The position numbers and the translations under genes are program-made. The notes beneath the pieces are model-generated. The model made no database searches and was not told where the DNA came from. It saw only the letters and a list, made by a program, of their open reading frames with translations. A stretch of DNA of 64,000 nt from Thuidium tamariscinum (taxonomy: Eukaryota; Streptophyta; Bryopsida; Hypnales; Thuidiaceae): assembly GCA_947034885.2 (NCBI GenBank), contig OX344749.2, positions 23,947,501-24,011,500 of the forward strand. Direction: 5' to 3'. Position 1 is the stretch's first letter. Each line of letters begins with the position of its first letter. Shown here piece after piece: positions 1 to 17,191 of the stretch.

Positions 1-516
1 CGCCCAAGTGCATCTGTAGAAGAAGAATTTCGAATCCAAAGGCGCCATACCACGTCTACACCCCCACTTCCAGATTCACACACGCTACAATCTAAGACCA
101 GAGGTATGCCTCTATACTTTTACCTCCTTTATTGTATTTTTGTGTATAAAAATACCTATTTGGACACCTCTTCTTTACACGTATATTGTAATCCCACTCA
201 CGCCCGGGAGCCTACTACTACCGGGAGGGTCTTTACAATATACTCCAAACAAATCGCAATCCATATCAAACCCATAGCAATACATAGAAACTTCCCTTGC
301 AATACATACATTTTACAACATACTCGTTCAAACATAGACCAAACTCCTAAAACTTCAATCTTTCTCCAAAATATGGATCCTCTCTACTCTAAAAAGTCTC
401 AAAATATTATACTTTTTCTAAAACAAAAGCGCATATATACATGCCTTAACATTTTTCAAATCATACTAGTTTTGTACTTTGGGCCTAAAAATCAAATTCA
501 ATGTTACGCAGGTACA

Positions 517-1680
517 ATGTCAGACCCTCCACAAAGCAACAAAGTTCGGAGACATATGGCTTACCCAAATGAAATAGAGATGGAAGATGCGTCTGGTTCT
601 CAAAAGTGCACCACACCAAAAGCTGAAGAATCAACACAAAAGAAATCGAAAGGCACCGTCACAACTATGTCCCTACTCAGTGAACCAGTGTCTTACGAAT
701 TTTGGTATGGGTTTCCTACTATGGAAACCCTTGCCTATGAAGCCAGCATACCGCCGTTCATCAACAAAGCATCAGTACCAAAACTCATTACTCAGGGATA
801 CAATCCACAAGAAGCAGACCACCTCACAAAAGCTCGTATGTCATTTCCTTGCGTGCAACAAAAGCTGTGGCCTACATCAAGACCTGACAATATTGCAGGC
901 CAGCACTTCAACCTGACTCAAATTCCCTTTGATGTTGAGGTAAACATGCACACCCAACTTGCTCTCGATTACCACATTCTCTTACATTTCGAAAAGCCTT
1001 TGTTCCCATTGACCCAAAAACAAGCCATGGTAAAGATTTTGGGGCTTTTTCAAGAGATGAACATACAGTTAAGGGATAGCATTGCTGACCCCATAGCAAT
1101 CCTATGTCATGGAGCCAAAAACTCCAAAGTTTGGTCAGGCATGGCTAGAATCCATCTTCAAAAACCAGAAATTGATGGTAAAGCTCTACTCCGTGGTACT
1201 AGAGTATTTGCCATCCCTCTAGATGATGACATACTTACAATAGCCAAAGTCTCCAAATCATTTGATCCTATTACCTCTAGTACCCTACTCTCTATCAAGA
1301 TTAATAGTGAAACCATCCGGAACATGGAACCCCACCACCTCTTCAAACAGACACTCGAAGAGAGTTTCCATAGGGGCTTTGAATTTGAACTAACACAGGT
1401 TCAAAAACCTACCGCTGAACCTTATGGCTGGCTGACAACATCACCGGAGCAACTGGCAAAAATCAAGCAGCAATGAATTGCAGTATTGGGAGAACTTCTA
1501 CAACTAGTTAATCGAGACTTGAATCAATTGACTCGTGAGGAGGTGAATAAGAGAAACTGCCTAGTACTCATTGTCAAAGGCATCTGTCGTACGCGCAGTC
1601 TAGCAGAAAGCACCTTTATCACACCCAAACGTGATAATATGACACGGAATATCGTCCCAGGAGATTCCAGACGTTACTAA
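517..1680 (+). pseudogene. LINE ORF1, first part (RNA-binding-like)
   Basis: An open frame runs to a TGA at 1474, and the same frame then continues for another 67 codons to 1680, so the original protein probably read through this point. The frame is open upstream to 106. I prefer the ATG at 517 (MSDPPQSNKV) because the residues before it look like translated AT-rich leader. The N-terminus is Lys/Ser/Thr-rich. A later stretch (roughly residues 190-260, with ILCHGAKNSKVWSGMARIHL) has the alternating hydrophobic pattern of the RRM-like domains usual in LINE ORF1 proteins. The family role would be RNA binding in the retrotransposition RNP. The 3.6-kb insertion begins directly after the last codon. 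Assignment to this LINE rather than to another element is inferred from position, strand and composition. Confidence 0.55.
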
Positions 1681-1681
1681 T

Positions 1682-4600
1682 AGTTGCGTTTTCCAGTTTC
1701 TAGGTTTCACGGCTCAAAACACCCAAGTTACTACTCTTAATCCGGAATACCAACTTATCTTCCGGAACTCTTTTTCCGGATCCGTCGTCTCTTTCTGAAT
1801 CCGTCTCTCAACTATGACCGGATTCCTTCCTCGGATCCGGAGTTCACCTTCACCCGGATCCGTCTCAATCCGGAATCCGGTTCCGTCATTCAATAATCGG
1901 TTTTTGATACCCCTGTTTTACCCTCAGGGAGTCCTCTCTTGATCTTTAGAGGGGTAGGGACTTACCACTCGTAAACCTCACGCTCTCTCCTCTTAAACAA
2001 AACACACGAAAACACCAAAATACATCCGGTGTTGTATTAGGACCGGATTCGGATCCTCACAACTTCCCGGATAGCTCTAGACCAATCCGGTTAGCAGGTC
2101 ACTCAGGACTACTTCACTTGCCCTTACTACAACGACAGATTCGAAAACCCCTAGACTCGAAAGGACGTATTTTCCTAGTTCTTCGGATCGACTCAGTGGT
2201 TGGCAGACCTTCCGATGGACGGAACTTTCCTATGGCGGCTGCTTAACTTCGCACGGATTCGCCCTTGCGGTTCCGGAACCTCCTCCTCGTCACTCCTGGA
2301 CTCACACCGGATCACCGTTCCGGTGAATTAAAGGCTCCACGCTCAAACTCACGATTCAAGATCCTAACTCTCGGAAGTTGGTCACTCAGTTCGGATTTCA
2401 AGTGCCTAAGAATCTGGATTCCTCCTCACCCTTCCCTCTTGCCTCTCAACACTTCAACGAACACACCAAGAAAAGACTCAAACACAAGTCAGAGCTAGAA
2501 TGTCCATCCGCCGGCTCAAATTAAAGAAGGGAATGAAAATACAATGGAATATGCATTAGGAGGGAATGACAGGCCAACTAACTTGCCTGCCCCTTAAAAG
2601 CTCAAAACAAAATGAAAGTCAAAGCCTAAAAACAGAAACGGAATGCCAACAAGGCAAAAGAAAATCCGAAACAACCAATCGGAGTCCAACCGGATTATTC
2701 GGAAAGGTCCGGCCAGTTGTCCCTAAAGTTCTGGATCGGGGCCTACATCCGGGAAATCCGTCCAGGAAACTTCTGTCCCAAAATCTCAAAATCCTACCTA
2801 ACTACACAACTTTGTCCTACTTACGCGCCCGCTTCGATGTCGTGCCCACGGGCGGAACTGAACTCCTTCGCGTCACTGCCTTAGGAGGGGGAGCCTTCTT
2901 GGTGGCGGATCGGGTTTGCCTCTTCTGAATCGGAACCGGTGGAGTTCCGCTGTCTTCCGTCGAGGTCTCCTCCGAATCCGCCTCGGAGCTTTCCGAATGC
3001 TCTACTTCCTGAAATCCGCCCTGCTCCCTAACTTCATTACGAATGGTGAGGGGCTGATTATCTTCCCTGTCCGAGTCATCCAAGATGACTGTCTTGCTGC
3101 GCGGATCCTTGCCCGGAATCCTATCTGGCTCGTTCATGTGGGCGAACTTCTCCGGATTCTCCCTGGCCGGATTCGCTAGGGCCTTCATCCGGATCTCCAG
3201 GTCGAGCCGTGGCGATGCCCTCTTCTCTTGCGGTTCCGTAGGTGTGTTGGACGGTCCGGCCGCATTCGGATCCGATCCGAGCTCGCCGAGGTTCTTCACG
3301 ACCGGCGAGTTTCCGAGTAGCTTCCGATCCGTCCTTGCGCACTAGGGCTGAAGTCCGTAAAAACCTGCTGGTTGAGCAAGCTCGACAGTCCTTCCCCCAA
3401 CTCCGGATTGAGAGCCCCAATTAAGGCCCTCATCTCCTTCAGTACCCCTTCCATCTTGGCCTAGTAATCCACCAAGATGGTGATAACTTTTGATCCGGTG
3501 ATGTGCCCTTCCGTCATCAGCCGGGCGGAAAACAGTTTCGCCCTCATCACTGTGTCCGCCGGCTGGGCCACCAACTCCTATAGGTTCCGAACCAAGGAGG
3601 TGGCCTCGACGATCTTCCCGTTGGCGACACTGAGATCACTCTCCAGATACGTCACCGTGCTCTGGAGCCCATTCCGCTCCTCTTCCGCCTTCCGTCGTCC
3701 CTCCTCAGCTACCCGGGCCAGATCTTCCGCCTGCCGAGTCCGATCCGTCTGGTTCCGGGCTTCGTCCTCCCACTTTCGGATCTCCTCGTCCTTTTTCCGC
3801 AACACCTCTTGAGTCGGAAGACGGTCGAGGATTTCCGGAATATCTTCGATCTTTACCGCGCCCAGCTTGGTGACGACCTGCTCGAGTATCGCCTCACACT
3901 GGTTGCTGTCCACGTGTGCCATTATGGCGTGATGGATGATGGTGTCGAAGTGGTTCCGCTTCTTCTTCCCCAGGGTGGATCCAGGTGGATCCGGGTCTGG
4001 ATGTCCCCTCTTATCCGGCGTCATGGACTTCTTCCGTTCCGGCTGGCCGGCTTCTACTCTTCCGGGTCCTCGTCCATCCGTTCGTCCTCTGGGTCCTCCG
4101 GCTCCTTCTCCAACTCATCCGTCAAGCCGTACTTGAAGATCTGCTCTCCCGTCTCATAGCGGAGGAGTTCCGGGCTACTCAGTACATCATTGTGGTGGTA
4201 CAGGTGGAAGAGATAGGCGCTGATGGTGTTGGTCTTCTCCCGTCCCACATGCTCGGCTAGCCGATTAACTACCCACTGGAGGACTAGGCTCCAGTTGACT
4301 ATCCGCTTCTCAAAACACCCGAAGATGGTGTTTGCTACCGTCACCGTGACACGGGTAGGCTTTTCCGGATAGAGGATGGGAATCAAGAATTCCAACATCC
4401 GTCTATGCCGGTCGTTCGTGCAATCCGGAACTGAGTATCTGTCCTTAGGGTGGGGCGGATTCCGGAATTTGTTAACACCAAACTTGTCCGTCCGGGAAGC
4501 CATACCTAATCCGGTTTTCTCAAACCCGTATACTTCCGCCTAGACTTCCGGCGACCAGGCACCCGGTCTACCCCTCACCGTGAGTTGGTACTGATTCGGA

Positions 4601-5295
4601 ACTCTCGAGAGGATTTCCTGCACCATCTCATCACTCTTCACACTCCACGGGCGCCGGATCAATCCATGACACCCTAGGAAGACTAAATCATCCTCTAACT
4701 CCTTCCGATGCTGCGGATCGGAAGGGATTACTGGCGAAATCGCCTTGGCAGTCACTACCGTCCGTTTCGGATTGGAGGAACTCGCCATCTCTCCGCCCGA
4801 GTCGGAACTTGTCGGTGCGGTCGGCACCGACCCGGAACTAAACCCGGAACCGATCTCTACTGCTCACCACTCTTTCTCTCTCTATACGCGCTCCAGAACT
4901 TGCACACAACTCGTACCTCGATTTGCCAAATCGAAAAGGAAAAATGAAGTAGAGTGGAGGGGTTTATATACCAGTCGGTACCCTGCGTTCTCAGTTCCCC
5001 TCGGAACGGCGCGACGTTCCCCGGCCGTTACGCTAGTTTCCGTAGGTCGGCGGCATAGATCCATAGGTGCCGACCATTCGGAACTGGCTCGGATCCGTCC
5101 CTAAGCAGACCGGATCCGTCTTTAACAATATCAGATCCGTCCTTAGCAAGTTCCGTCTTCCGGAAAGTTCCGTTCCGGGTACTGAGAAATCCAGATCCGG
5201 AAACTTACACCCATAGTCCGGAAATCCTCCTTGGTTAATCCGGTTCAGACGGATCCCAAGGGAAAAAGACTTTAATTGTCTTTTTCTTCCCATAT
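1682..5295 (-). mobile_element. GC-rich inserted element with minus-strand coding region, unclassified
   Basis: A sharp change in composition interrupts the LINE. The block is dense in GGATCCG, TTCCGG and CCGGAT motifs in both flanks, like subterminal repeats. A 5-bp CTAAT at 1677-1681 and 5296-5300 may be a target-site duplication. On the minus strand a coding-like region extends from about 4.83 kb to 2.82 kb. It shows a Ser/Pro-rich N-terminal part, a helical globular part resembling plant transposon gag-like proteins, a long charged coiled coil and an acidic/basic tail. It is broken, with roughly four breaks. I see no long terminal repeats, no integrase and no transposase, so it is non-autonomous; whether it is LTR kin or a DNA element is open. 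It is younger than the LINE. Confidence 0.6.
4961..4976 (-). promoter_or_regulatory. TATA box of the inserted element
   Basis: Read on the minus strand the sequence is CTGGTATATAAACCCC, a near-ideal TATA box. It lies about 140 bp upstream of the first minus-strand Met codon of the inserted element. A pyrimidine-rich leader follows at the right distance for a transcription start near 4930. Confidence 0.6.
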
Positions 5296-5353
5296 CTAAT
5301 CCTAAAATTTTGAAAAATTGAGCTACTCTATATACTATTTTCCTATTTTCACT

Positions 5354-5992
5354 TACATGATATTTTCGGACTGCGACAGCATCAACCTCACCAAATCAAT
5401 TGCTGAAGTAACCCAGGGATTTCAAGATCACTTTGGAGTCAAAAATGTCAAATCCATCTTCTTCCCTCGGTATAAAGGAGATGCTCATAGCGGTGTAGCC
5501 AATATTGAATGTCTCAACGCCGCAGTCTATAAGCAACATGTGAAGAAATCAACACACCTTCAGTACAAATGGGTGGAATTCCAGCCCCATCCTAACTCTC
5601 TAGATGGGATTGCCAAACCCAATGATGAAACCCTTCAGAAATGGGGTTTCTTGGACATCAACACTGCTCTAGCTAGTATAGTTGAAGCAATGCAGAACAC
5701 AGCATCATCCTCTGCCCCAAAACAATCATTACAGAGAGAAGAACTATTAGCGTTGATAGGAGAGGCGGTTTCCAAAGAAAATTTGAAGCTGCGGATGGAA
5801 TTTAAATCCGACATGAGTCAAATGAAAGAAGAACTGACAATAGAGGCACAAAGTTATGCAGACAAGGTAGATCAGGAGCTCAGAGGTAACCTGACAAACC
5901 TAGAATCCATCCTAGCTCAAAGCATGCAAATGATTAAAGGCTTGACTCGTTCAGCCATTAAAGCCCCCGAACCCTCCTCACCACCAAACTAG
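5354..5992 (+). pseudogene. LINE ORF1, second part
   Basis: An open frame of about 210 codons starts at the ATG at 5354 (MIFSDCDSINL); upstream codons of the same frame lie in a TATA-like AT-rich leader. The first 80 residues (VKNVKSIFFPRYKG, then SGVANIECLNAAVYKQHV) look RRM-like. The second half is predicted helical and charged (EELLALIGEAVSKENLKLRMEFKSDMSQMKEEL), fitting a coiled-coil multimerisation region. It ends in a Pro-rich tail with a stop at 5990-5992, 137 bp before the first ATG of ORF2. It may be the C-terminal half of the protein begun at 517, split by the insertion, or a separate ORF; the sequence does not decide. Confidence 0.5.
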
Positions 5993-6339
5993 TTCAGTCT
6001 TACAATGCCATCACCCAAAAACAGAGTGCCATAGTCATATACCTTAGTATTACATCATCCATTATTTGTATTTCACTATTGTACACTGCCACCTAGTGGC
6101 AATATTATATATATATTTTGCTTCTCTTCATGTCCTCATCAAATTTCCATTTCTCTTTTGACATTCAATCTCATACACAACAATTAAACACTTATAAATC
6201 ACACTTATATGCACACAAACACATTATATGTGTTAGCAACCACATTCAAATATCTAGTCAAATTTACCAACAAATTCAAGTAAAATTGAAAACCACCTCT
6301 CTTATCTCAAAACACCAAAAATTTCCTTTGTACACTACA

Positions 6340-6378
6340 ATTCTTTTATGTGGTGATATAGAAACTAACCTAGGACCC
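6340..6378 (+). other. 2A-like ribosome-skipping motif near the ORF2 N-terminus
   Basis: The ORF2 peptide reads ILLCGDIETNLGP followed by Met-Pro, about 83 residues from the first ATG. Active 2A sequences have D-V/I-E-x-N-P-G-P. Here every position fits except Leu in place of the first Pro, and a hydrophobic stretch precedes the motif as in known 2A peptides. In other LINEs such motifs sit at the same place, upstream of the endonuclease. This copy would be predicted not to skip efficiently. Confidence 0.6.
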
Positions 6379-7017
6379 ATGCCTGATATATTTACCACCC
6401 ACCCACCTCCACATAAAAATAGATATAAAATGTATTTTATAACATGCACAATAAAACTACAACCCGAATACCAATACTTAGCAAAACAATTCCCACCTAT
6501 AATAAACATCACACACCCTCACCACAACGACACTACCATAAATTACCCTTACATAGCACAATACATTCATCAAAACCAACATCACCCACCACCTAGACTT
6601 TTATTTGCACTTATTACCACAATTAGCCCACAATTAGAGACATGTAACCATCTATTAAGACAAACATCTATCCCAGACTGGACCACACTATTACTAGAAA
6701 AAATGGCCCTATTACAAAATCCACCAGAAAGGCATCTCACAACACCACACCTATACACTCAATTTAAAAATCTACACCAAGATATCATTGTACCTTCCAA
6801 TTCCATTCACAAAGAAATATATAATTTTATCATACAAACACCCGCACCACCAACCTTACAAATTATACTTAACAAATTTCCATATCTACCTGAGAAACTA
6901 CTTCTAGAAGCATTAAAATGTAAAGACACCTTGATAGAATACTCCCACCCCACTCCTCTACCTAATTTACCAAACACAGATACTACAAACACACAAACTA
7001 CTAACTTCAATACATAC

Positions 7018-7790
7018 ATGACTACATGGAACGCAGCATCGATCAACACAGCCTTACCAAGCCTCCAACAACTAACATCACACACACCAACTACTCCTGC
7101 AATAATAACAATACAAGAAACCAAAATAACTGCAACAAAATCCACAAAATATATCGAAAACTTATTTCCACAATATAAATTAATATTTAATAATATACAT
7201 GCATTAACTAGATGCATGCAACAAAGACGACCATATACACCAGGACGTGGTGGACTCTTTACACTAATAAATAAAAATTATGCATACCCAGGAAACATTA
7301 CCAAAATTCCAACCCCAGCTGAATTTTCACCATATTTACAAATTATAAAAATCAACAATCACCCTTTACAACCATGGCTACTACTCCACATGTACATGCC
7401 ATTACACTCAAATGATTTACAACTGATACCCAAAATTCAACAATGTATAAGTCAACAAATCTCCCTACACTCACAACACACTTATATTCTATGTGGAGAC
7501 TTCAACAGAGACATTGCCCTTATTGGTAGACAAAATGAATTTAACATAACTTTGCCACAAACAGAAGACATAGAATGGCGTACATTTACAGCCAGCCAAC
7601 AACTTACATATATATCTACTAACAGTCTTTTTTCTAGACAAGGTGGTCAAAACTATACTCAAACTAGTCTAATAGATGGTTACTATATAAATACACCTAA
7701 TTCTACTTTATACACAGCAACCACAAATCATAACCACAACCTTAATTCAGACCACTCACTAGTAACATTATATATACCACCAAATACATT
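7018..7790 (+). other. AP endonuclease domain of LINE ORF2
   Basis: In the first ORF2 segment the APE-type motifs occur in the right order: WNAASIN (N at the first metal site), IQETKI (catalytic E), GRGGL, the long beta-strand region, CGDFNRD (GDFN), a D-containing LIDGYY strand and terminal SDHSLV (catalytic D/H). The domain nicks target DNA to prime reverse transcription. All key residues are present, so this part of the copy is well preserved. Confidence 0.85.
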
Positions 7791-8872
7791 ACTAGCAAGA
7801 CCTACAACACCAATAATAAATAAACCACCACGAATACTAAACCCTATTCCCCAAGAAAATATAGAAAGATTTCAAACAAATTTTTTTGAAGAACACGCAA
7901 CTCAAATGAATGAACTAACCACCATTCTTATAAATGAAAATATAACAAACCACCAATGGCATGAAGCATGCAATACCTTAGACCACCTCATACAAAGTAT
8001 ATCCAATAAAATACTTGAAAACTGTAGTGTACCACCATTACCCCATCTAACAAACCGTACAGCCCAACAAGGTGGATTTTTACCAAAAAAAATACAAAAA
8101 AAATGGAAGGCTCACCTCTCTACTTACCATCTGATTAGGAAGGCAAGCTACATATCCAAACACCCAACAAATTGGACAATCCATCCAATTATAAAAGAAA
8201 TACGTAACCACAACAATGCCCACATTCCACCACCTGAAATAAATGGTACAAACCAACAAGAATGGATTAACACCATAGCAAAACTAGCCAAAACTGCAAA
8301 TATACAAGCTCGTAAAATAACTACACAATATACTAAAAAATGCATCAAAAAAGCAATCTCAAAATATAGACAACTATATGAAAAAAGTCCCAAAAAAAAA
8401 AAAAAAAATTCAGAAACCAAAATACCCCCTCACTAGATTGCATTTTGGATAGACAAAACAATTTATTAACCAACCCGGTAGACATTGCCAATGAAATACA
8501 CACTCAACAATCAATTAATAATAGCCCTACAGTCCCAACATGCTACTATCTACCAGAACACCCACCACATTGTACATGCGTAGTGAGACAATACCCCTGG
8601 CATGACTTAGATGGTTTTGTCATAGACAAACGTGGAACCCCGGATACCCCTCTACATACTTACTTCACCAAAGAAACGTATGACATATGTTTAAAACACT
8701 TAGCCAATAATAAAACCCCTGGGCCAGATTTAATTCCAAATATAATCCTTAAAAATATGCCTCAATGTTTTCAAAACTTCCTTTTTCTATTCTTCAAACA
8801 TTGTTATAAACACAAACAAATCCCATCATCTTGGAAAACTAGGCTGACTATATTACTTTACAAAAAAAAAAG

Positions 8873-9560
8873 ATTCTTCTCAATTATCAAATCATAGACC
8901 AATTGCACTTGCCAACACCATCTACAAATTTTTCACTAGTACTTTCACTTTAACCCTTTCAAACTATGGCGAAAAATACCAAATCCTTCATGACAGCCAA
9001 GAAGGATTTAGACCAGAACGTAGCACATCACGACAATTACAACTTCTTATAGCAGCTTTAGAAGATGCATGATTCACTAATCAAGACATCTACATATTAT
9101 ATATAGACTTCAAAAACGCCTTCGGTTCCATAGACCACGCAAGGCTTTTGGCTATAATGTCAGACCTTGGATATCCAAAAGACGCAATAGCATTAATAGG
9201 AAATATTTACTCTAACTCCACTACAATTTTTATAGGAGAACATTTTGGTAAAACTAAACCAATACAAATACAAAGAAGAACCATTCAAGGTGACACACTT
9301 AGTCCATACCCCTTCCTTATTTTTCTAGAACCGCTACTTAGATGGCTCCAAAAAGGTAATAATGGCTACAACTTTGGTACATCCCAGATAACTATAAGTT
9401 CTTCAGTATATACAGATGACTTAGCAGCTACATCAAATAATCCCCAATCACTCCAATCTCAACTAAACAAACTAGATAAATATTGTGAATGGGCAGGAAT
9501 GGATCTAGGAGTACCAAAATGTGCAATCACTGGATGCCCAAATAAATCAAAAACAAAACC
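8873..9560 (+). other. Reverse transcriptase core of LINE ORF2
   Basis: RT blocks are readable in one frame apart from an in-frame TGA near 9070: NHRPIALANTIYKFF, EGFRPERSTSRQ, ILYIDFKNAFGSIDH (catalytic D), RRTIQGDTLSPYPFLIF, VYTDDLAA (catalytic DD) and WAGMDLGVPKCAITG (thumb border). The active-site box is YTDD where most LINEs have F/YADD; Thr at this position is tolerated, though less common. Thumb and connection sequence continue to about 10440 in shifted frames. Confidence 0.85.
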
Positions 9561-11214
9561 GGACATCTTTAAAACCCAAATACTTACCATGAACATTAAC
9601 TATAGAAACCAACAAATACCAGTTTTACACCAACACGAATCCTACCCATACTTAGTAATACAACTAGTACCCTCTCTAAAATGGAAACTACAAACTCATA
9701 TCACCACTAAAAAGGTAACAGATCAATGTGCTCAACTTACTAAGTGCCCAGCTACAATAAATCAAAAAATCAATATAGTTGACACTGTAATTAGAGCAGG
9801 TATAGCCTATAGTTTCTATGCAGTGCCATACTCTCTACCAACAATTAAAAAAACTTGATAAAAAGATAATTGGAATTCAGAAAACTATATGTGGATTACC
9901 AAAATGCATTGCCAACGTAATAGCACAACTTCCACACGAATTTTTTGGACTTGAAGCCTTTTCTCTTAAAAATGCATACCTATGTTGCATTAGTGAACAA
10001 CTTAGAAATGCTCTAAACGATTCAGGAAGACTAAGAATAATATATAGAGGACTTATCCACCATATCTTGGCCAAGTTTGGAGGGGCAGAAAACATTCCAA
10101 GAATCAAACAATAAGATTGTGTCAGGTCACCTGCAACACGGACCCTCTTTCTTCTAAAGCATGAAGCAAACATCCACCTCATGAGTGTAATAGAAAACTT
10201 TCAACTACATCCAACCAAACTTGAAAAAGAATGGATGACACAAACCACTCTTATTCTACCACATTTACATTCCAAACTTTCCTTTAAAATGCTACATAAA
10301 CTTCTTCTACATAACATATATAAAATTAAACACATTACACTTCCAAATGGTACAAATTTAATGTCACCTGAAGACTTCAAAATATACTACAAAACTCCAA
10401 CCAAAATTGAAAAAGATGCTTTAAATATAGCTGAATAACTTTTCTGTTATACACAATGTACACCTGAATGTTTACAACCCTGTCCAAGACACCCACTACC
10501 AAGAACTCTAAGAGCACAATATATTTTAGATAACCGAGATTTAACTCCCAGGACTTCATATAACCCTCCACATCCACCACCAGTACAAATACCACAACAA
10601 CAAAATCCACCTCTACATATTCAAAACAACCCACTTAGCTTCCCCATATACATTATAATAGACCATCAAACCAAAGAAATCAAAGACAAATACAAAATTC
10701 CTAAAAAATTTAATGTATATCTATGCCAATGGACACTTGAAGATAATACCACTTATAATAAATGGCTACCACAAAGAAATCTTTTCCCGTTTAATCAACC
10801 AACGGTAATTGCACACAACATCAACCTACTAACATAATATTATACAAAACAACAACACAAATACTACAAAAACCTCATCATGATCAACTTTAACCATGAA
10901 CAATCTAGAGATACTAGATTTATCTCACCTCCAACAATAATTCCACTTATGCAAATCTCAACTAATGAATGCAATCCAGAGAAAGACATAATAACAAACA
11001 CACCTACCATAATAACACAAAATGAACTAACACATATATACCTTGACACCAGTAACTACCTCATCACTATTCCAACCACTAGATTACAATGGCTATGGAA
11101 ACAATACCAAACTGTTATTCATAATACACATGGCTTGACACCACCTACACAATCATTTGAAACCGAGATCACATGGCTATATCAACGTTACAAATATAAG
11201 AAATCTAATAAAAA

Positions 11215-11720
11215 CACGCTAAGAACATCGCAACACTCCCTTCCACAAGATATCTTAGACTCCTTAACAAAAACATTTGACATTTCTCATTCATATTTCT
11301 CATCACCAATCACCTGCTCCATACTAATCACACAATTTTACTCTTTCTTTGAAAGAGACAAAGTATTTGGATCACTTGGCAAAGCATTTCAATACAAATG
11401 GAAAGGCAGAGGTTTTGCACATCCACAAAATGAAGAAACAGCCCAACAAGCACTACATTGGGCAAGACTAGCAGCCAAACACGATCTAAATACCATAACT
11501 ATACTAGTCATACCGGACATAAATTGGTACCATAACTTCTCTCCATATATCGGACCATTTGAAGATACACACGTTATTGCACATTTTGCTGCGGACACTA
11601 TTACATATGAAGAACCAACAATTCCAATTGAACTAAAGAAACGAAAACACATTGAGCCCCTTGCAATACATATTCTATGCATACATCACCAAAACCACAA
11701 TATTGGCCCACCCAACCAAC
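11215..11720 (+). other. Methyltransferase-like segment between RT and RNase H
   Basis: The ORF2 frame here contains a segment not found in ordinary LINEs: FDISHSYFSSPITC, FGSLGKAFQYKWKGRGFAHP, QQALHWARLAA and ITILVIPDINWY. The pattern (start strand, F/YFSSP, W-x-G-x-G-F-A-x-P, helix, then I-L-V-I-P-D-x-x-W-Y) recalls motif IV and the following strand of Dam/PCIF1-type adenine methyltransferases, where NPPF/Y binds the target base. Here AHPQ stands in that place, so the catalytic Asn is missing. This is inference from motif shape; an HMM search is needed. Confidence 0.4.
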
Positions 11721-11934
11721 TAGACTCCCTCACAATGATTCTCCAAAAGATGCAAATACCACAGTATCACATACAAATTGCTGCACCAACACCCAATAAT
11801 GTAATAGTGAAAAAGAATTCAAATTGGAATAAACTCACTTACAAAATCAATTATAATTTAATAAATTTATATATGCCCCCTTTACCAACGTATACATCTA
11901 TCCCTCAATTAAAATTTCCACCGCAATATAGCTA

Positions 11935-12360
11935 CTACACAGATGGATCTTTTATACCACCGCAACAACATGCAAATGGACATTGGATACGCGAAAAAGC
12001 AGGATACGGCATATACAACTCTCTTAAAGAAGAAATTCAAATTTCTAAACGGCTTCTTGGTTTACAAACCATTTTTAGAGCTGAGCTCATGGCCATACAC
12101 AAAACCCTACGCATAATCACTACCCAATACCCACATGAACCTGCCTACATATTCATTGATTGCCTAAATTGTCTATATGTCCTTAATACACAACTAAAAC
12201 ATCCCACTCTACATTGCAACCATGCAGACAAAATTATATTGGAATCTATAGAAGAGATGCTTCAAAGCCATACACAATCTACAACAATTTCCAAAATTAA
12301 AGGCCACACTAATATTGTAGGCAATGAACAAGCAGACAAACTTGCAAAAAATGGCACAAC
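11935..12360 (+). other. RNase H domain of LINE ORF2
   Basis: Catalytic residues are readable in order: YYTDGSF (first D), FRAELMAIHKTL (E), YIFIDCLNCLYVL (D) and KGHTNIVGNEQADKLAK (H and final D). The fold order and spacing fit type I RNase H as found in several plant and algal LINE lineages, where it removes template RNA. The domain lies immediately before the C-family MITE insertion. Confidence 0.85.
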
Positions 12361-12463
12361 AAAAGAATATAAATTTGCCTCAAAAAATTATGAATTTGCA
12401 CATACTACTCCATTCTATTACCAAAAAGATGAATGGCCAGGTCAGGCCCATCGACCTGGCAAA

Positions 12464-12750
12464 GGCATTAGAGGAGATTCAAGGGCAACAGGAGCCTGCG
12501 AAAGCCCTGTTCCCCGAATTGTTCCCGATCAGTAATTAATTCAAAAAATAAATTCAAAAAATAAAAATAAAAAAGTTCGTCTTGAAATGCAAAAAAAAGT
12601 CCAAAAAAAAAATTCAAAAAAAAAATTGGTGACGTGGCACACTCTCGACCACGTCAGCACAGGCCAGTTCCGGATTCCTGCAGCACATTCCAGCGTTCAC
12701 AGCTTCGGGAACTCACAGTCTCCCATTGCCCCCGAATCTCCTCTAATGTC
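12464..12750. mobile_element. Family C MITE, copy 1 (inside LINE ORF2)
   Basis: The left end GGCATTAGAGGAGATTC is inverted at the right end (GAATCTCCTCTAATGTC), extending to about 30 bp with a few mismatches. The ends are GC-rich and the middle is an A-rich run. It shares an internal GACGTGG...CCACGTC block with the copy at 42908-43178. It splits ORF2 just after the RNase H domain. The exact junctions with the LINE are uncertain by up to 30 bp. Confidence 0.75.
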
Positions 12751-12959
12751 TAGTTAGATGTTTAGGAACATACATCATCAAACATGACCACGATAAAAAT
12801 CTTGAAGTATTGGCACAACGATTTCCTAACATTAGTAAATGGACCCTTAATCCCGATATACATAAGGACCTCTCTAATGAATTTTGGTCAAACCCTGAAA
12901 TAACCGACTCACAAAAAACAAGCCTATTAAAATTCCGCACCGGCCAATACATGGGAAAT

Positions 12960-13080
12960 GCTAGAAAACAATTTTTTTGGGATTGAGAGATTTCCATCCA
13001 TCACATGCTCCATTTGTAACTCTCATGACGTAGACACATGGCTCCATGTACTCTTAAAATGCAAACAACATCATATTCAT
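12960..13080 (+). other. C-terminal CCHC zinc knuckle of LINE ORF2
   Basis: The peptide reads GIERFPSITCSICNSHDVD, then TWLHVLLKCKQHH, giving the C-x2-C-x(n)-H-x4-C arrangement usual at the C-terminus of LINE ORF2 proteins. It is reached after a one-base shift at the T-run near 12975. Confidence 0.7.
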
Positions 13081-13291
13081 GTCCTTCATGTCAAAAGACA
13101 TAACAAAGCAGTATGGGAATTGCGAAAACTAATCCTATCTACCAAAAATAGTAGATATTATACTCTCATGAATGCAGGAACATGCAACAACAATCCACAA
13201 GAAAACACAATCTCCTCATGGGTGTTACCGTGCTCTTGTCAAAGACAAAGATGCCATTGTAACGCTAGATTTAAACTGGATATCCTCAAGA

Positions 13292-13866
13292 TTAACCCCT
13301 AAGCGCCCCGACGTCCATTTTCTGGACGATGTACAGATTTGAAATCAGTTTTCTTTTCCATTACTGCTTGGATGAAAGTCATCTAATTTGTGGTGATTCT
13401 TTATCAAGTTGTTCTCCTATCTAATGGTTGGATTTGGTGTTATTAGAGTTCATATTTTTCTAAAATTACAGATGTGGAAGTTTATCAAGTCAAAAATTGC
13501 ATTGATTTTAGTTCAAAATTGGGTTTGCAAAAATGAGGTCATAGATTAAAAGAACACAAAAATTTCAAAAAATCACCAAATGAAGAAAACCTCATTTCAA
13601 ATCCACTCCAATAAGTTTCACTGCAAAAATGACAATATTTTGCTTGTAATTGAATTTAGAAGATATTTTGAATTTTTCTTTTCAAAATTTATAAAAATAT
13701 ATTGGTGATAGCATTGGTAAATCTAACCATATAGATGGAATCTAAAAATCAAAATCTACAACTTTTATTTGTATGTCAAGTCCAAAATATCCTTCTAAAT
13801 AGGACTTTATAAGGATTTTCCCTAAGTAGTCAATTCTGGAGATGGATCCAGGCGTTCTAGGGTTAA
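13292..13866. mobile_element. Family B TTAA-flanked MITE, copy B1 (inside LINE ORF2)
   Basis: The LINE frame ILKI stops at TTAA and resumes after a second TTAA. Between them lies an element starting CCCCTAAGCGCC and ending GGCGTTCTAGGG, imperfect inverted repeats with CCC/GGG tips. TTAA target sites with CCC-starting ends are the signature of the piggyBac superfamily. There is no coding capacity. The interior differs from copies B2, B4 and B5, so it is a related subfamily. Confidence 0.75.
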
Positions 13867-14239
13867 AGGACTCCCCTACCAAAGCAACCCACCAAATATC
13901 CCAAATAATAATCTCACAATACAATTCATTGAATTTACATACTCTACTGATAGGTTTGCGCAAACAACCATTGATAATAAAATTCAAAAATACCAACCAT
14001 TAATAAATAGCGTCGTGGCCCAAGGATGGAAAATAGATCCACTTATTGTCATTACAGGAGGAGCTAGAGGAACAACACACATTCCTTCAATGAAAATCCT
14101 TGAAGCCAAACTTAAATTAACAGAAACTACTCTAACACACACTTTTAAAGCTATCAATACCATAGGCACACAGTACGTTGGATCAATCATTCTACATAAA
14201 AGAAGAATTGAAAACAACCAACCACTTCCAATAGAATAA

Positions 14240-14490
14240 GAAACCCAACAATGCACATTACATTGCATATTCAGTACTACTAGTAAATAACTAACTAAAT
14301 TGAAATCAAATCAATCTAATTAAATCTAGCAAGATTAAATTAAATCTTGGACTCTTTAAACTAGTTACTTGTTACTTTAGTGTCTATTTTCAAAAGGAAA
14401 AAGTAGTCTTGCATCAATCCTGTGGACATTGGCTCATTGTCATGACGAACAGACACTTTATTCACGCCGGACTGCTTTTACAAGTGAACC
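14240..14490. other. LINE 3' tail and PABN upstream region
   Basis: AT-rich sequence with no ORF. The first part is presumably LINE 3' UTR. A CCAAT-like CATTGGCTCATTG occurs near 14428, plausibly part of the PABN promoter. Confidence 0.4.
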
Positions 14491-14494
14491 GGAG

Positions 14495-14507
14495 TTTATA
14501 TATATAT
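14495..14507 (+). promoter_or_regulatory. TATA box of PABN
   Basis: TTTATATATATAT lies about 390 bp upstream of the PABN start codon. A purine-rich stretch and then a GC-rich leader follow, so a start near 14530 is likely. It is within about 250 bp of the last LINE codon. Confidence 0.55.
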
Positions 14508-14888: not shown

Positions 14889-17191
14889 ATGGAGGAAGAG
14901 CACGAGGTGTACGGGGGTGATATTCCCGACGAAGTGGAGGGGGACCTGGAAGTGGATTCCGACGGGGAGCCTGATGACCCCTTGCTCAAGGGCGACGACG
15001 TGGCCACAGACGAAGTGGCCTATAAGGTGCGCATTCCGGACATTTTTCGGAAATTTTATCGTTCGTCGGAATGTCCGGCTTCTTGCAAATTTTTCAGTGG
15101 ATGACAAGTTTTCACCGCGTCTTTATGCATTTCATCTGAATAGTAGCCGGGCACTAAATTCGGATTGTGTTTATGGATTCTGAATTACGGGACCATTGCT
15201 GCCCATAGGCCTCCACCCCCTGAAGTGTCCACCCTTGGTCGATTCTCCTCGTAGAATCTGCGCTGGGCGTAGCACTCTACACTAAATTGCAACAATTGCG
15301 CGCATGGCAGTCCGGTTTCCGGTGCCTTGGTTGTTTCTTAGTGTGAAAGTATAATTTGCATACCTTGTTTTCGTCGTTTGAATGTGTGCCTCTTAGGATT
15401 CGTCTCGAACGTTAATTAGGTGACCCGATTTCGTAGTTGGAGTTTGACAGTCTAAGTGCTTGTGGTGAGTTTGGAATTGTTTTCGGTGAGGTAAAATCCA
15501 GGGGATTTTTGATGAGCACTGGAAATCATTTGTTAGCACTCGGCGAGGATCCTAACCTAATTATTCCATGCTCCCAATTCCGAGGTGTTCAGGAGCTGGA
15601 GGACATGAAGAAGCGATTGAAGGAGATGGAGGAAGAGGCCGCTGCGCTTCGTGACATGCAAGCTAAGGTCGAAAAGGAGATGGGTGGCAGTCAAGGTTCG
15701 TGTTTGCTCTCTCCCCTGCTGGTTGGGTTGGAGAGTACGACTAGAGTGCGTTCGTGTTCGTCCGATGTTTCGACGCCTTGATGTTTTCCGTTTTGTCTTT
15801 CTTTTGTTCTTTGAATTGTCCTCGTGAGTGTGCTATGTTTTTGGACTTCATTTTCAGTTCTGTGAATGTTTGTCTGGAGCATCAGTGCAGCTGTTTTCAC
15901 TCGTCGCGTGCAATTCTAGGATCTGGTGTGTCGGTTGGTAATGTGTTGGTGGACCGCTTTTGCAGACCCAGCTCTCGCCAATGGAGCCCACGCCAACCGA
16001 GAGGAAGCTGATGCTCGTTCCGTTTTTGTTGGCAATGTAATTTTTCGTTTTCTTTGTTCCCTTTCGTGTCCGTTTTTTGTTCCTGACTGCTTATGCTCTT
16101 GGATTCTGTATTTTGTGTCGCATCTTTTTGTTGCGTTTGTGGGATCAGAGTGCAGCCATTTGACTGCTTTGTTTCTTTTGTATTATTTCAGGTGGATTAC
16201 TCGTGCACTCCAGAAGAAGTGCAACAGCACTTTCAGTCTTGTGGCACAGTGAACCGCGTGACGATTTTGACGGACAAGTTCGGTCAGCCGAAGGGGTACC
16301 GGCTCTTTGTCCTTCTTTTTTGAATCGGGCAGCGTGCAGTGAGGTCGTGGAGTGTATTTGTTTGTCCGGGGTTTAGGAGGGATGATTGGTTTCTAGCTCG
16401 GTTTTGTGATTCGGCAGTCGAGTTCATTTGTTTGGTTGTCGATTCGTTTTTTCTTTTCTGAACTCGGTGTTTATTTTGCGAGCAGGTTTGCATATGTGGA
16501 GTTTCTGGAGGTGGAGGCAGTTCAAAATGCCATTCTTTTGAGCGAATCTGAGTTGCATAATCGCCCCCTGAAGGTTGTCATCCTTCTCTCGTGTGGAGAA
16601 TCCTCCCCGTGCACATGTTGTTTTGATTTTTTCGTGAGGAGCTGTTCGAACGTTGTCCTTCTGAAGCGAGTCGTTGTTCCCTTTTTCCTGTTGAATTTCT
16701 TCCATCCGTCGATCTGATGTGGAGTGTTTGTGCCGCTGTCAGGTTACGGCGAAGCGAACCAATGTTCCCGGAATGAAGGGCTATCGGGGTCGACCGTACT
16801 CCCCGTTTTATGGGTACCGCTCGCGGAGGCCCTTTTCAGCTCCCTATGGGTATGCTCCCTATGGTTTTGGGTGGGTATCCTCCGTGGATTCCATTCTGAC
16901 TTGTGGAGTGCATATTTCATACCGAGTTCAAAGTTTGTTTGTTTGGTGTTTTGATTTTTGTCGAGTGATTGTTTTTTCTCGGTGAGAGTGAGGTGCTGGC
17001 GAAGTCGCGTATGTCATCGTACGTCCTCGGAGTGTCCATGTTTTCCGGAGAGGGCTTGTTTTTTCAGTCGATATGGTGACTGAGTCCTTTGTTACGCCGT
17101 GACTTGCATTTTTGTGTCCTGATATGTTTTTGTATCTTGCAGGAAGGTCCCTCGGTTCAGGAGGCCGATGCGCTACCGCCCTTACTATTAG
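14889..17191 (+). CDS. PABN: Nuclear poly(A)-binding protein (PABPN1/PABN type), 7 exons
   Basis: Exons: 14889-15026, 15593-15695, 15966-16036, 16192-16295, 16486-16573, 16743-16870, 17143-17191. All introns are GT-AG, the phases agree, and the total is 681 nt (226 aa). Order: acidic N-terminus (1-46), coiled coil [21 protein letters not shown] (47-77), one RRM (about 99-175) with RNP2 SVFVGNV and RNP1 KGFAYVEF, and an Arg/Tyr/Pro-rich tail ending [10 protein letters not shown]. This is the full PABPN1 architecture and about the usual plant length. The family binds growing poly(A) tails in the nucleus, stimulates poly(A) polymerase and sets tail length. The start codon is the first ATG before the acidic stretch, with a TATA box 390 bp upstream. 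No neighbour is functionally linked; the LINE lies directly upstream and MITE B2 540 bp downstream. Confidence 0.93.

Follow-up and report, generated by a model that had tools for sequence, protein, structure and literature searches.

A large LINE retrotransposon of the moss Thuidium tamariscinum carries a PCIF1-type methyltransferase domain between its reverse transcriptase (RT) and its RNase H, and judged from sequence comparison this domain is real, under selection and catalytically altered. In animals, PCIF1 methylates mRNAs at their start. The best explanation, to which we assign a probability of about 0.6, is that a domain of the PCIF1 family was captured anciently, is probably inactive as a methyltransferase and has been reused as a nucleic-acid-binding module.

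Layout of the element and the PCIF1-like domain

The window, that is, the whole stretch of 64,000 nucleotides analysed here, begins inside an ORF2-bearing LINE on the plus strand, the 3' end of which lies at about 14507. The element occupies four pieces of the window (1-1584, 5379-12465, 12745-13295 and 13860-14507) with three insertions between them. This copy is broken by stops as well as by the three insertions, and the separate frames of its ORF2 are 6097-8436, 8382-8897, 9073-9858, 10115-10438, 10439-10837 and 10838-12535. The features are as follows (window coordinates; strand in brackets, with a dot where none is assigned).

1..1584 (+): LINE, 5' part (ORF1 side), with the start of the element upstream of the window; open frame 1-1476; no Pfam match
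1585..5378 (.): insertion into the window copy; 1584 and 5379 adjoin, with a short overlap, in the 8 loci listed of 20
5379..5989 (+): remainder of ORF1, joined to the 5' part in the loci listed; no Pfam match above the cut-off
6352..6378 (+): 2A-like motif near the start of ORF2, GDIETNLGP in the window copy and GDIETNPGP in 14 of 20 other loci
7024..7764 (+): APE-type endonuclease domain; Exo_endo_phos_2 (E 7.1e-5) and Exo_endo_phos (E 5.7e-4) match without reaching the curated cut-off
8382..9858 (+): reverse transcriptase region, with interrupted frames in the window copy; RVT_1 E 1.8e-17 at 9082-9534
10115..11137 (+): connector from RT to the PCIF1-like segment, for which no homology was detected
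11138..11671 (+): PCIF1-like domain derived from a methyltransferase; its Pfam core is 11138-11515
11297..11308 (+): FSSP, corresponding to F-A-S-P of PCIF1; invariant in 25/25 distinct sequences
11366..11380 (+): FGSLG, corresponding to FGSRG of PCIF1; invariant in 25/25 distinct sequences
11414..11431 (+): FAHPQN where PCIF1 has its catalytic loop (ANPPF); invariant in 25/25 distinct sequences
11927..12355 (+): RNase H domain; PF00075 E 2.3e-13, aa 364-506 of frame 10838-12535
12466..12744 (.): MITE-like insertion with terminal inverted repeats; 39-nt arms 12463-12501 and 12713-12751, 82% complementary
13006..13104 (+): CCHC zinc-finger motif, then RHN; 19 of the 20 other loci have the pattern
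13261..14239 (+): restriction-like-endonuclease-like C terminus (KPD...E...K), by motif only; pattern in 17 of 20 other loci
14240..14507 (+): 3' UTR, with a short T/A repeat at its end

Window positions 1-1600 have 42 matches in the genome, and 26 of them, the window's own included, span approximately 1-1584. The 3.8-kb insertion at 1585-5378 lies in the ORF1 region and has 52.5% GC versus 35.2% in the neighbouring element; the 5-base overlap at its ends, seen by comparison with locus L024, may be a target-site duplication. The MITE-like insertion lies just 3' of the RNase H domain of the window copy, and its inverted repeats read CATTAGAGGAGATTC...GAATCTCCTCTAATG. In the same copy an insertion at about 13296-13859 interrupts the KPD...E...K region, and KLD replaces KPD. 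Close downstream of the 3' end of the LINE start frames at 14890-15781, which we take to resemble a plant nuclear poly(A)-binding protein.

A single open frame at 10838-12535 (+), 565 aa long, holds the strings YFSSPITC, FGSLGKAFQYKWKGRGFAHP, ALHWARLAA and ILVIPDINWY in the order that the preliminary description of this DNA had given. That description had also proposed that a methyltransferase segment was captured between RT and RNase H, and had suggested a profile search. The search was positive for PCIF1 in the window and in the copies of alignment A1: Pfam family PF12237 matches aa 101-226 of the frame (11138-11515) with E 3.3e-14 and 53.3 bits, against a curated cut-off of 31.1. The order RVT_1 (9082-9534), PF12237 (11138-11515), RNase_H (11927-12355) bears out the proposed arrangement. 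Within A1, whose members were picked as full-length and stop-free, PF12237 is matched in 16 of 16 (E up to 1). Two details need correction. The segment had been called Dam/PCIF1-like, of which the PCIF1 part stands and the Dam part does not, since Dam is absent among the families listed; and the interval 11215-11720 originally assigned to it covers the core but misses the start of the match at 11138. The Pfam name of the family, PCIF1_WW, is a misnomer, as PF12237 is a CAPAM(PCIF1)-like methyltransferase family and not a WW domain (PMC7641849).

Other comparisons agree on the relationship. A phmmer search of the PDB with a 351-aa segment gave PCIF1 structures 6irx_A (E 5.4e-4) and 6irv_A (E 0.0068), and a profile of the longer, 599-column connector matched the same entries more weakly (0.014 and 0.1). 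When the segment was aligned locally to the PCIF1 stretch, the score was 96, a value reached by 0 of 2000 shuffles (mean 29, maximum 57); the scores of four control pieces from elsewhere in the element were 23-29. Two other families of adenine methyltransferases were considered and rejected as relatives: no Dam (D12 class) family was listed at E up to 10 in the profile searches of the window and L024, and neither Dam nor MT-A70 (PF05063) occurs among the families listed for the window, L024 and the A1 members.

No Pfam family was matched by 10115-10435 or 10439-10834 in the profile search, and no WW or helical domain was found before the methyltransferase domain, PF12237 being the only family along the entire L024 connector. 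The helical stretch scored −3.4 bits in the PDB alignment, and a diverged helical domain could escape such scoring. Structure prediction by AlphaFold gave no usable model either for the connector (pLDDT 31.3, 16 closely similar sequences) or for the C-terminal part of ORF2 (pLDDT 34.6, 12 closely similar sequences); the low values are probably due to the copies being too alike.

Copies, selection and the catalytic loop

We searched the genome (363 Mb, six frames) with the PF12237 profile and found 46 places, 45 of them above the cut-off. All 46 lie inside matches to the segment of this LINE, as judged by comparing the two lists by eye, which rules out a host gene fragment trapped in the LINE. 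No separate host PCIF1 was seen, though this search might overlook a gene divided into very small pieces. The corresponding search for MT-A70 (PF05063) gave five exon-sized matches at three places, all away from the LINE segment; a genome search of this kind is thus able to find split genes. The SAM_LFY profile (PF01698) matched the genome at six places, with a best E of 1.6e-27; LEAFY is a streptophyte gene.

In the genome, 63 stretches match the 284-aa segment, and some of these are pieces of one copy. Forty copies of it are complete or nearly so, 39 covering residue 1 to at least 281 and one covering 27-284, and the copies other than the window's own are 86-93% identical to it. Twenty copies were examined as loci of 9952 bases. 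Long open ORF2 frames occur in several copies (1928 aa in L024, 2385 aa in C10:21648290). L024 has one stop, in the endonuclease region, and contains in one frame this region together with the 2A-like motif GDIETNPGP, the domains RT (RVT_1, E 5.3e-28), PCIF1-like (E 2.3e-14) and RNase H (E 5.1e-16), CCHC with RHN, and KPD...E...K. The C-terminal part has more matching stretches than the PCIF1-like segment (130 versus 63), and many of them are strongly decayed (C6:26333040, C3:13826906 and others), so that the lineage looks old in this genome. Some old lineages might be devoid of the PCIF1-like domain.

The PCIF1-like segment is under purifying selection and is constrained like the other domains of the element. 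By the Nei-Gojobori method (ratio of mean dN to mean dS among pairs with dS > 0.02, all pairs averaged, decayed copies included; 20 or 21 copies, 181-204 pairs, mean dS 0.16-0.19), its dN/dS is 0.180 over 292 codons (L024 5751-6626, wider than the Pfam match). The corresponding values are 0.188 for the endonuclease, 0.201 for the N-terminal part, 0.115 for RT, 0.162 for RNase H and 0.123 for the C-terminal part. The connector upstream of the PCIF1-like segment, which has no known homology, is nearly as constrained, at 0.227. The value of 0.180 rules out a decaying passenger.

Alignment with PCIF1 places F-A-H-P-Q-N of the element against F-E-A-N-P-P-F, which confirms the earlier observation that AHPQ stands where NPPF would be expected. 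FAHPQN (that is, NPPF replaced by HPQN), FSSP and FGSLG are identical in all 25 distinct full-length sequences that were read out of the 40 copies, four of these sequences having a stop elsewhere in the segment. A wider count found FAHPQN in all 48 rows, with some copies entered more than once. FSSP and FGSLG are presumably the cofactor-side motifs, and their retention in 25/25 sequences makes a loss of methyl transfer less than certain.

Six decayed relatives have at the place of FAHPQN the sequences I*HQNI (L049), IVYAPT (L050), FVYHID (L051), LAHSHN (L052), a gap followed by HLCV (L053) and VAHLHN (L054); NPPF occurs in none of the six. They are pseudogenes, several of them weakly aligned at the loop, and therefore give only a hint that the loop changed in ancient times.

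For PCIF1 itself, changes of N553 and F556 abolish the enzyme activity (PMC10544176), and another report describes a reduced activity after a change in the NPPF loop (PMC6318281). Drosophila PCIF1, with F changed to H, is termed catalytically dead (PMC9916840, PMC9479742). In honey bees, m6Am is absent with a mild loop change from NPPF to NPPY (PMC9479742), which indicates that the activity is not settled by the loop sequence alone. Because the motif is altered in every copy examined and the domain is nevertheless under selection, its use is probably other than methylation.

Affinities of the element

The best PDB matches of the RT are R2 proteins (E 1.6e-30), followed by LINE-1 (E 6.9e-20). 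The endonuclease matches are below the Pfam cut-offs in the window, L022 and L024; in L022, Exo_endo_phos_2, placed before the RT, has E 1.4e-5 and 25.3 bits against a cut-off of 27.4. The C terminus (window 13006-14239; L024 7179-8096) contains CCHC, RHN and KPD...E...K in an R2-like manner, with a CxC...CxC cluster before KPD. It gave no Pfam or R2 match, and a restriction-like endonuclease (RLE) is suggested there by motifs only; ORF2 may carry a second, R2-like endonuclease besides the APE.

2A motifs are ribosome-skipping signals. Among the other loci the 2A-like motif reads NPGP in 14/20 and NLGP in 2/20, the pattern not being found in 4/20. Short T/A repeats end all 19 loci listed of the 20, L009 being without a match there, and the tail is a simple repeat other than poly(A).

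The joint presence of APE and RLE is a mark of Dualen (PMC4640811), and the tails of RandI are (ATT)n and (CTATTT)n (PMC3747384). The element resembles the Dualen/RandI group, of which it is a candidate member, its RLE being at the level of motifs and its APE match below the cut-off. It has in common with these LINEs an apparent N-terminal APE and apparent C-terminal RLE-like region, an RNase H and a simple-repeat 3' tail (PMC4640811). It differs in the methyltransferase, a word with 0 occurrences in PMC4640811.

In viral contigs no relatives were confirmed by searches with the RT, the PCIF1-like segment or the alignments of the connector and the C terminus, and none were confirmed in prokaryote genomes, phages and plasmids; plant LINEs are not expected in such collections. 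Fourteen control genomes had no PF12237 match, but as MT-A70 and PF01698 found nothing in them either, they carry no weight here.

Proposed role of the domain and its alternatives

We propose that a large LINE captured a PCIF1-family methyltransferase domain long ago and set it between its reverse transcriptase and its RNase H. With the change of the catalytic loop from NPPF to HPQN, methyl transfer would very probably have been lost, a conclusion drawn from the published NPPF mutants, which are inactive or weakened. The domain would have been kept because it holds nucleic acid. The most likely ligand would be RNA of the element itself, or the RNA:DNA hybrid as it emerges from the polymerase, and the bound nucleic acid could be passed to RNase H during target-primed reverse transcription. 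We infer the age of the capture, the RNA binding and the hand-over; the structural or RNA-binding role suggested for the segment in the preliminary description is plausible on the evidence of the sequences. RNA is the substrate of PCIF1, whose helical domain forms a presumed RNA groove (PMC9916840).

Four other readings have to be weighed against this one. That the segment is an ordinary LINE connection sequence, matched to a methyltransferase by chance or by composition, could be suspected from the AT-rich element with its biased protein composition (35% GC over 5379-12465) and from the poor structural model; it is strongly disfavoured, and we reject it as hardly tenable in view of the E value of the Pfam match, the shuffles and the genome-wide search, in which PF12237 matched this element only. 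An unlikely reading makes the segment a structural spacer, whose fold stabilises the long ORF2 protein and has no ligand of its own. The loss of the catalytic loop agrees with this, as does the constraint on the upstream connector, which is only slightly weaker (0.227 against 0.180), whereas the long invariant stretches, with the former loop among them, speak for more than a spacer. We regard as quite improbable that the domain, with its unusual HPQN loop, still works as an N6-adenine methyltransferase, acting on the RNA of the element or on new cDNA. The invariance of FSSP and FGSLG, a selection resembling that on the other enzymatic domains, and the cytosine methyltransferases borne by other retrotransposons (PMC5890265) would fit such an activity, but N has become H and F has become N at positions where mutation inactivates or weakens PCIF1 (PMC10544176, PMC6318281), and NPPF is found in 0/6 of the older relatives.

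The fourth reading, rather unlikely as well, is that of a cap-binding module gripping the capped 5' end of the LINE RNA and thereby aiding cis preference or full-length copying. In PCIF1, the site that recognises the m7G cap lies between the helical and methyltransferase domains (PMC9916840), of which the helical half is undetectable in the element; since this half forms part of the cap site of PCIF1, we treat cap binding as a possibility only. It is similarly doubtful, though conceivable, that a LINE lineage took a PCIF1-family cap methyltransferase, disabled its chemistry and made it a recogniser of its own capped RNA. If true, this would be a new route of template choice for a retrotransposon, possibly one with two different endonucleases.

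The domain can be set beside several known systems. With PCIF1/CAPAM, the cap-adjacent m6Am methyltransferase, the element shares the homology of the methyltransferase core, in which F-x-S-P, FGS-x-G, the site of the NPPF loop and the hydrophobic stretch that follows this loop are included; the element differs in having HPQN for NPPF, in the WW and helical domains, which were not found, and in being a LINE polyprotein in a genome where no host gene was seen. The catalytically dead PCIF1 of Drosophila also has an altered NPPF loop and is thought to keep a methylation-independent role (PMC9479742, PMC9916840), but it stands alone as a protein of the host and has a single change (F to H), whereas the transposon-borne domain has three of the four loop residues changed. 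CAPAM-like domains in eTudor-DCD proteins are likewise PF12237-type fusions outside classical PCIF1, and the passage of PMC7641849 that treats them does not describe them as transposons.

Retrotransposons with captured methyltransferases are represented by SymbioLINE-Dnmt, SymbioDIRS-Dnmt3 and KnitGypsy-Dnmt3, one of which is a LINE and one of which occurs in a charophyte; like the present domain, theirs are under purifying selection (PMC5890265). Unlike it, they are C5-cytosine enzymes, the LINE case has the enzyme in ORF1, and in Klebsormidium the key residues are reported to be conserved (PMC5890265), whereas the present domain has lost its catalytic loop. The DIRS elements with a Dam-type N6-adenine methyltransferase (cited in PMC5890265 and PMC6338049) share with our LINE an adenine-type domain in a retrotransposon polyprotein; the family there is Dam, to which the LINE segment has no match.

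As to PCIF1, one source describes it as restricted to eukaryotes, where it can be traced to the last common ancestor (PMC8868631), another review as conserved only in vertebrates (PMC9916840), and a third source (PMC8324889) mentions it as a host enzyme only. Among the matches listed in our search of literature titles and abstract beginnings, there was no report of a PCIF1 domain in a retrotransposon.

Taken together, cytosine methyltransferases carried by LINE, DIRS and Gypsy elements, the charophyte Klebsormidium included (PMC5890265), and Dam in DIRS elements were already known, and the PCIF1-type domain of this LINE appears to be a further independent capture, in which the domain was kept and the catalytic motif lost. 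As no free-standing PCIF1 was seen in the T. tamariscinum genome, annotation by family alone would label pieces of a transposon as PCIF1 genes. If the domain binds RNA or caps, it would help in studying the way in which LINE proteins pick out the transcript that encodes them.
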